Of a stretch of 64,000 nucleotides of DNA, positions 20,987 to 21,806 are shown piece by piece (position 1 is the stretch's first letter; each line of letters starts with the position of its first letter). Source of the stretch: Clostridia bacterium (GTDB lineage Bacteria; Bacillota; Clostridia; Oscillospirales; CAG-382); contig JAFRPL010000032.1 in NCBI GenBank assembly GCA_017429165.1, forward strand, positions 62,001 to 126,000, read 5' to 3'. The position numbers were made by a program, and so were the translations under genes. The notes below the pieces were generated by a model. That model was given only the letters and a program-made list of their open reading frames with translations. It was not told where the DNA came from and searched no databases.

Positions 20987-21060
20987 GCAGGCGTAGTTCA
21001 GTGGCAGAACATCAGCTTCCCAAGCTGAATATGCGGGTTCGATTCCCGTCGCCTGCTCCA
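20987..21060 (+). tRNA. tRNA-Gly (anticodon CCC)
   Basis: A 74-nt cloverleaf is readable. The acceptor stem is GCAGGCG/CGCCTGC with U73 and an encoded CCA end, and the T arm contains GGTTCGATTCC. The anticodon stem TCAGC/GCTGA encloses the loop TTCCCAA, giving anticodon CCC, which reads glycine GGG codons. It has its own promoter and terminator and is a single-gene unit. Confidence 0.95.
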
Positions 21061-21090
21061 GAAAAAACCTCGCGATAGCGAGGTTTTTTC
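21061..21090 (+). terminator. tRNA-Gly terminator
   Basis: GAAAAAACCTCGC (21061-21073) and GCGAGGTTTTTTC (21078-21090) form a perfect 13-bp hairpin with a GATA loop. The T-run is part of the right arm, and the A-run on the left would serve the other strand too. Confidence 0.92.
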
Positions 21091-21092
21091 AA

Positions 21093-21259
21093 TGATGTTT
21101 GCCCCTTACGGGGCAAATGATGTGTGCTCTGCACATGATGTTGCCTTCGGCAATGATGTGTGCCTTCGGCACATGAAGGGCAAACATCGCATCATTGTGA
21201 GCGATAGCGAACAACATCATTTCTGCGCCAGCAGATTCATCATTAGCCGCTACAGCGGC
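21093..21259. repeat. Array of seven short hairpins separated by TGATG or CATCA pentamers
   Basis: From the left: TGATG (21093), hairpin TTTGCCCC/GGGGCAAA (21098-21117), TGATG (21118), TGTGC/GCACA (21123-21135), TGATG (21136), TTGCC/GGCAA (21141-21153), TGATG (21154), TGTGCC/GGCACA (21159-21173). After this the spacer turns into its reverse complement: CATCA (21190), hairpin TTGTNNGC/GCNNACAA (21195-21214), CATCA (21215), TCTGC/GCAGA (21222-21235), CATCA (21238), GCCGCT/AGCGGC (21246-21259). An outer inverted repeat ATGTTTGCCC (21095-21104)/GGGCAAACAT (21178-21187) encloses the left hairpins. No convincing coding sequence is present. The rest of 21091-21353 holds nothing else that I can identify. 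Confidence 0.8.
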
Positions 21260-21353
21260 GGCGGGTGCGTTTTGTACCTTTACTTTTTGTAAAAATGCAT
21301 TATAATATATACGTAAGGCGGCACAAGACGGAAGAAAAGGGGGATGGGCGGCT

Positions 21354-21806
21354 GTGGAAGTCGGCAAAACGATAACCGAGCTTAGAACTGCGCGCGGGAT
21401 GTCGCAGCAGGCGCTGGCGGATTCCCTCTTTGTTTCGAGAGAGCTCGTTTCCAAATGGGAAAACGGCACGCGGTGCCCGGATCTTACCACCGTGGAAAAG
21501 ATCGCCGCGGCGCTGGGCGTTACGGCGGACGACATAGTGGATCCGAACGACCTGGTTTTTAAAGAACTTTTTGAATGCGTGCCGGACGGCTTTTCGCTTA
21601 CCGAAGAGCAGATGACGGCAAAGCTCAACGTTTTCCTGCGCCGCACGGGCGGGCAGAACGCGGGGATATTTTTGAAGCGCTATTATCTGCTGCGGCCCAC
21701 CGCCGAAATAGCGGCGGAATACAGAAAGAGCGAAAGCCACGTAAGAAGCATACTTTCGAAAACGCGCAAAAAGTTCAAACGCTTTTTAGAGGAGGATAAG
21801 ACGTGA
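21354..21806 (+). CDS. XRE-type HTH protein with sigma-70 region 4-like C-terminus
   Basis: The 150-residue protein has an N-terminal Cro/C1-type HTH (about residues 5-62: ITELRTARGMSQQALADS and SRELVSKWENGTRCPDLTT). Its C-terminal third (about 100-148) reads GIFLKRYYLLRPTAEIAAEY and RKSESHVRSILSKTRKKFKRF, which resembles region 4 of ECF-type sigma factors. Region 2 is missing, so it is not a normal sigma factor. The start is GTG 21354 with AGGGGG nine bases upstream; the nearer ATG is out of frame. Its stop overlaps the next start by four bases (GTGA). It may bind DNA with both ends or act with RNA polymerase. Confidence 0.8.
   Translation: MEVGKTITELRTARGMSQQALADSLFVSRELVSKWENGTRCPDLTTVEKIAAALGVTADDIVDPNDLVFKELFECVPDGFSLTEEQMTAKLNVFLRRTGGQNAGIFLKRYYLLRPTAEIAAEYRKSESHVRSILSKTRKKFKRFLEEDKT

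Follow-up and report, generated by a model that had tools for sequence, protein, structure and literature searches.

Behind the terminator of a tRNA-Gly gene in the 64,000-nucleotide stretch of Clostridia bacterium DNA that we analyzed (the window) lies an array of seven hairpins, and this array is very probably a copy of a mobile hairpin-array element associated with proteins of the family PF05635. Our explanation as a whole, which we regard as likely while holding its single inferred steps less firmly, is that the element is selfish and consists of a compound hairpin array together with, in its fuller copies, a PF05635 gene, and that the window copy is a solo array. Four points were absent from the first-pass annotation of this DNA, namely the PF05635 partner, the match of the left half to the Rfam family Gut-1, the matched spacer classes, and the preference for tRNA terminators.

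The first-pass annotation described four TGATG spacers on the left and three CATCA spacers on the right, separating seven hairpins directly 3′ of a tRNA terminator, and all of these coordinates proved exact (Table 1). The terminator belongs to a tRNA-Gly(CCC) gene, and the element starts at the 3′ foot of its palindrome, which we call H0. The outer inverted repeat described around the left half is real but is 11 bp rather than 10 bp long (GATGTTTGCCC and GGGCAAACATC), and it is a conserved part that is able to pair with the left end of the element. The array folds with a z-score of −7.9 against shuffles. In a scan for hairpins strung between copies of one short spacer and then between copies of its reverse complement, the window array scored 7 versus a maximum of 5 in dinucleotide shuffles (0 of 3000 as high), and it alone reached a score of at least 6 within the 64-kb window. 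A CRISPR was considered and rejected, as the Rfam CRISPR-DR match falls below cut-off and it is the short joints of the array that repeat while the hairpins differ.

Table 1. Features of the window copy and its left flank, in window coordinates
Feature	Coordinates	Strand	Remarks
tRNA-Gly (CCC) gene, 5′ of element	20987..21060	+	ARAGORN; Rfam tRNA 72 bits
H0, perfect palindrome, intrinsic terminator of the tRNA gene; arms 21061-21073 / 21078-21090	21061..21090	+	same position in orthologue L055
Whole array, solo copy without PF05635 gene, final spacer lost	21091..21261	+	
a, left end (spacer 1 and 5′ arm of H1), complementary to a′	21094..21104	+	
Left spacer s1, TGATG	21093..21097	+	
Left spacer s2, TGATG	21118..21122	+	
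Left spacer s3, TGATG	21136..21140	+	
Left spacer s4, TGATG	21154..21158	+	
Hairpin H1	21098..21117	+	
Hairpin H2	21123..21135	+	
Hairpin H3	21141..21153	+	
Hairpin H4	21159..21173	+	
a′, complement of left end	21178..21188	+	conserved at offset 82-93 in 72 elements (among matches listed)
Right spacer r1, CATCA	21190..21194	+	
Right spacer r2, CATCA	21215..21219	+	
Right spacer r3, CATCA (r4 missing in window copy)	21238..21242	+	
Hairpin H5	21195..21214	+	
Hairpin H6	21220..21237	+	
Hairpin H7	21243..21261	+	
Match to Rfam Gut-1 (RF01706), model 1-77 (whole), 35 bits, E 3e-5	21090..21183	+	gathering score 50

The copy L019, from the same genome and among the nearest relatives of the window array there, retains the last spacer and about 30 codons of a PF05635 gene at its right end, and it carries the full right end CATCATTG that is absent from the window copy. 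The window copy has no PF05635 gene, and by comparison with L019 it is best read as a protein-less derivative that is slightly truncated and has lost its last spacer. The gene that follows it encodes an XRE-type regulator, which is probably incidental, given that other copies have different neighbors. This regulator (21354-21806) has a C-terminal stretch resembling sigma-70 region 4 (TIGR02937, below cut-off) and has 18 matching places in the genome.

A common plan emerged when we read about 30 copies, some from the genus and others from distant families: H0, AA, s1 H1 s2 H2 s3 H3 s4 H4, a′, r1 H5 r2 H6 r3 H7 r4. In this plan H0 is usually a tRNA terminator, the left spacers are of the GYGAWRT kind (also GCTAAAT), each right spacer is the reverse complement of the left kind, and a′ is complementary to s1 together with the 5′ arm of H1. 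Terminal inverted repeats, as a DDE-type MITE would have, are present, and the intact copy L019 runs from CAATGATG to CATCATTG. Elements were delimited by hand and later by spacer position. The spacer that had been described as constant is constant within an element but varies between elements, with at least six variants. In 24 hand-set elements we found six classes, with left and right agreeing except in the degenerate L021 and a few mixed copies. Spacer classes thus number at least six, are largely constant within one element, and match from left to right.

A scan of public genomes yielded at least 72 distinct elements with an a′, picked blind to the right half, and most of the matches listed are from gut Clostridia. 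In these 72 elements, among the matches listed, a′ stands 82–93 nt from the left end, and 234 right spacers match the class of the left half versus 25 that do not. The segments between spacers form hairpins well above shuffled segments, with mostly TTC-like loops in the left half and mostly GAA- or GTAA-like loops in the right half, and H4 is the weakest because its segment takes in the bases before a′. The stems are diverse and share too little sequence for trustworthy automatic alignment. The earlier claim that spacers and the capacity to fold are conserved, in contrast to stem sequence, holds, as does the statement that look-alike arrays occur in gut Clostridia, where they are in fact common (dozens of gut Clostridia). 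Several pattern matches outside the Clostridia (Bacteroidota, archaea, and cyanobacteria) have neither the right half nor a′ and look like chance. The pattern also matches viral contigs, many of which may be chance, and plasmid records gave no match to the array.

The family Gut-1 was described, from human-gut sequence alone, as a non-coding RNA (Weinberg et al. 2010, PMC2864571). The window copy aligns full-length to the Gut-1 model with one extra hairpin and has the three hairpins with the UGAAA-type linker, and it scores 35 bits against a gathering cut-off of 50, whereas similar elements of the genome score 51–76 bits. Its genome holds 29 Gut-1 matches at E ≤ 1, of which 5 are over the cut-off, while among 14 control genomes 4 have a match at E ≤ 1 and none has one over the cut-off. 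Matches often occur as neighboring plus and minus pairs that face each other, which are the two halves of one palindromic element; both halves of the array match the model, on opposite strands, and in many copies the left half, and on the other strand the right half, matches the whole of it, several over the cut-off. Unlike the family as described, what we see here is one half of a palindromic element that occurs in many gut Clostridia and is linked to tRNA terminators and to a protein. Judged by these alignments, the Gut-1 “RNA” of Rfam is one half of the element. One Gut-1 match, in L025, looks spurious by eye. Titles and passages from the literature, including papers that name PF05635 or S23p, gave no specific description of hairpin arrays of this kind.

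If the published view of Gut-1 were right, the array would be a structured non-coding RNA with a cellular job, spread by recombination and not by selfish transposition, and the match of the left half to the model, the fixed architecture with conserved hairpin positions, and the location of the array in the 5′ leader of promoter-driven copies all fit such an RNA. We nevertheless think it unlikely, since the Gut-1 match of the right half lies on the opposite strand, with reverse-complemented loops (TTC on the left, GAA on the right), for which an RNA made from one strand has no need. Also against it, the tRNA form has only about 2 nt between terminator and array and so has no promoter of its own, copy number and position vary between close relatives, and the occurrence of Gut-1 is patchy (5 of 398 genomes of the phylum at E ≤ 1e-4).

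When ORFs near arrays were clustered, one same-strand family was found directly to the right of arrays, and this was PF05635 (88 bits; TIGR02436), the 23S rRNA intervening-sequence protein, which is an Avd-like four-helix bundle. Among the matches listed that have enough downstream sequence, 12 of 121 arrays have a PF05635 gene 18–79 nt downstream and one more has it at 322 nt; about 90% of the scanned arrays among the matches listed have no adjoining PF05635 gene. Starting from the protein, 5 of the 9 strong PF05635 genes of the genus follow an array, and when PF05635 genes were chosen across the class regardless of arrays, an array was found upstream of 25 of 59, compared with 2 of 171 tiles and 5 of 1180 shuffles used as controls. 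More than half of these class-wide genes are without an array by this strict test, and 23 of the 59 have a same-strand tRNA gene within 500 nt. Some genes without an array (L305, L309, L311, L304, L343, L411, and L412) are flanked by other short repeats, and some have complementary repeats on their far side (of the CTCTTCAC, AATTGCA, and GGAAAGTG types).

Spacer class follows the protein closely, in that 7 classes require 6 changes on the protein tree, which is the minimum, versus a mean of 17.9 when shuffled (0 of 200 as low), and this agreement can be explained by co-inheritance without binding. In its predicted fold (pLDDT 95) the linked protein resembles the S23 structures 2RLD and 2GSC, with weaker matches to Avd (4DWL, TM 0.75–0.78 with the best chains) and to the ribonucleoprotein of a diversity-generating retroelement (8UB7); a relation between PF05635 and Avd is noted in PMC10053308. 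On balance, we lean slightly toward the PF05635 protein recognizing the array.

In the GCTAAAT and GCGATAT forms, a promoter-like site seen by eye precedes H0, and the array would then be the 5′ leader of the PF05635 gene, while in tRNA-linked copies a promoter-like site, also seen by eye, follows the array and lies next to the gene. Because some copies appear to lie in the 5′ leader of the protein gene, a protein-binding DNA array and a structured RNA, which were offered earlier as separate possibilities, are not mutually exclusive. The array might on this evidence be a mere expression-control leader of the PF05635 gene, with solo copies as dead remnants, and in the two forms just named it does lie between a promoter-like site and the gene, directly 5′ of the latter, and it could switch between two folds that exclude each other, a:a′ on the one hand and H1 with a left-right spacer zipper on the other. 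We consider this improbable given that the promoter-like site of the tRNA form comes after the array and that many solo copies keep matched spacers, which would be expected to be lost in dead remnants.

Among the matches listed, 49 of the 72 elements lie 24–45 nt 3′ of a tRNA gene, and these genes represent 14 isotypes. Because the scan pattern demanded TTTTC before the array, the link to terminators is partly built in, but the link to tRNA genes is not. This strong bias, together with the near-identical array at the orthologous position in the close relative G001, is what would be expected of a DNA-binding, supercoil, or boundary element that the host has domesticated behind highly transcribed tRNA genes. 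Such a role is very unlikely, however, as several tRNA sites of the same genome (L104, L105, and L107) have no array and many copies lie away from tRNA genes, and it would leave the linkage to PF05635 unexplained.

The window copy adjoins one palindrome, H0, on its left and not an enclosing stem. The array of L388 comes after an rlmD-like coding end, and 17 nt of this coding sequence recur in inverted orientation as the right arm of H0. The homologue L406 lacks the inverted copy, and L380 shows a similar pattern of H0 at another gene end. These two cases suggest that inverted copying of the host flank may sometimes give rise to H0. Downstream, L388 (1-1515) has a second array of another spacer class, before which stands a short fragment similar to the end of an rlmD-like gene. 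In L021 and L043, H0 and the array closely follow a duplicated tRNA-Pro 3′ end, and in L312 an array with a PF05635 gene directly follows the stop codon of a protein gene with no terminator hairpin.

Mobility of the element is supported by comparison of sequences within and between genomes. A search for further copies, read in the stretches surrounding matches, found an array 96% identical to that of the window behind another tRNA terminator of the same genome. In G001, but not in G000, an entire additional array, of a different class, stands between a tRNA-Val terminator and an older array (L049 versus L015). G001 also carries 326 bp of inserted sequence with an array in the loop of one terminator, which is uninterrupted in G000 (L097 versus L102). 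A longer unit of about 340 bp, which combines an H0 of its own and an array with two additional hairpins, occurs at L014, L023, L024, L028, L029, L030, and L099, with some copies apparently inside terminator loops, two of these judged by inference across joined contig ends. Several assembly contigs end in this unit. Whole hairpins differ between the orthologues L017 and L096, two of them matching hairpins of another copy, L037, and L016 looks like a chimera of two spacer classes, and for these reasons hairpins seem to be exchanged by recombination. A phage-labeled record from human feces (MT835815, L413) has an array and a PF05635 gene behind a tRNA-like 3′ end. The suggestion of a mobile, mostly non-autonomous element agrees with what we find. 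The array is multi-copy, is present or absent between close relatives, and in most copies has no gene. Comparison of copies for ends and target duplications gave the right end from L019 but no clear target-site duplication at L049/L015 or L097/L102, clean empty sites being few.

No mobilizing enzyme was found for the elements. Two loci in G000 and one in G001 have a reverse transcriptase (RVT_1) gene, in each case on a contig that bears none of the arrays that were read; G002 and G003 have no such gene, although arrays are present in G003 (87% complete). The elements resemble REP/BIME sequences in having short hairpins with a conserved foot, inverted pairing, an intergenic position, and many copies, and one might accordingly picture a palindromic element moved by a RAYT or IS200-type Y1 transposase. 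This is highly improbable, because Y1_Tnp (PF01797) is absent from all 4 genomes of the genus while control genomes are positive, and because a fixed order of seven hairpins is not a REP plan; the arrays further differ from REP/BIME in having no RAYT, in their 4+3 architecture and spacer classes, and in their link to PF05635. Insertion 3′ of terminator hairpins is also the preference of group IIC introns, but the elements have no intron-encoded reverse transcriptase, and no intron structure was noticed in them.

The mobile element that we favor would act through a folded single strand, either an RNA leader or exposed DNA. In computed ensembles of 55 elements among the matches listed, pairing between left and right spacers is dominant in 34 when folded as RNA and 43 when folded as DNA, while a:a′ pairing is dominant in 7–9, and the spacer zipper is to this extent a fold obtained by computation. 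In such a strand the left spacers would zip with the right and form as many as three four-way junctions, stacked and bearing hairpins as arms, and the a:a′ fold would compete with both H1 and the zipper. The PF05635 protein, similar to the pentameric Avd cofactor of diversity-generating retroelements, would recognize its own spacer class in the folded strand and would help the element to persist or to be copied to other hairpin sites. Sites behind the terminators of stable RNAs may be favored because insertion does little harm there and perhaps because these units are highly transcribed. Solo copies, including that of the window, would be remnants or would have moved in trans.

In Coxiella burnetii, the intervening sequence (IVS) is described in PMC4990558 as a selfish element in a 23S helix, with origin and function undetermined in that source. 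The 23S IVS with S23p (PMC4990558) and the present element have in common the PF05635 family, a stable-RNA unit with insertion at a hairpin, and possibly complementary borders. Unlike the IVS, the element lies behind tRNA or protein genes and not within a 23S rRNA helix (the window copy is behind tRNA-Gly and in no rRNA gene), and it has a seven-hairpin array with matched spacers and, in most copies, no gene. The linked protein also resembles in its predicted fold Avd of diversity-generating retroelements (4DWL, 8UB7), but in contrast to those retroelements no reverse transcriptase, template repeat, or variable repeat was found with the arrays. A reading that joins all of this, which we offer only tentatively and think more apt to be wrong than right as a whole, is that PF05635 and the arrays form an unrecognized class of mobile element spreading via a folded single strand. 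Its protein would recognize a class-specific zipper of stacked four-way junctions, insertion would be at hairpins, H0 would sometimes be an inverted host copy, the 23S IVSs would be relatives caught in rRNA, and Gut-1 would be the most visible half.

The role of PF05635 (S23p/IVP) is described in PMC4990558 as still undefined decades after the discovery of the IVS in 23S rRNA, and Gut-1 has been an RNA family without a function since 2010. Our results tie the two together, and the orphan protein thereby gains a conserved, class-matched candidate nucleic-acid partner adjoining its own gene. Because the partner sequence is class-matched, binding can be tested directly with the spacer classes as natural swap controls. 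The element offers a possible route to how intervening sequences spread, and it is a warning that some families of structured RNA may be halves of palindromic mobile DNA.
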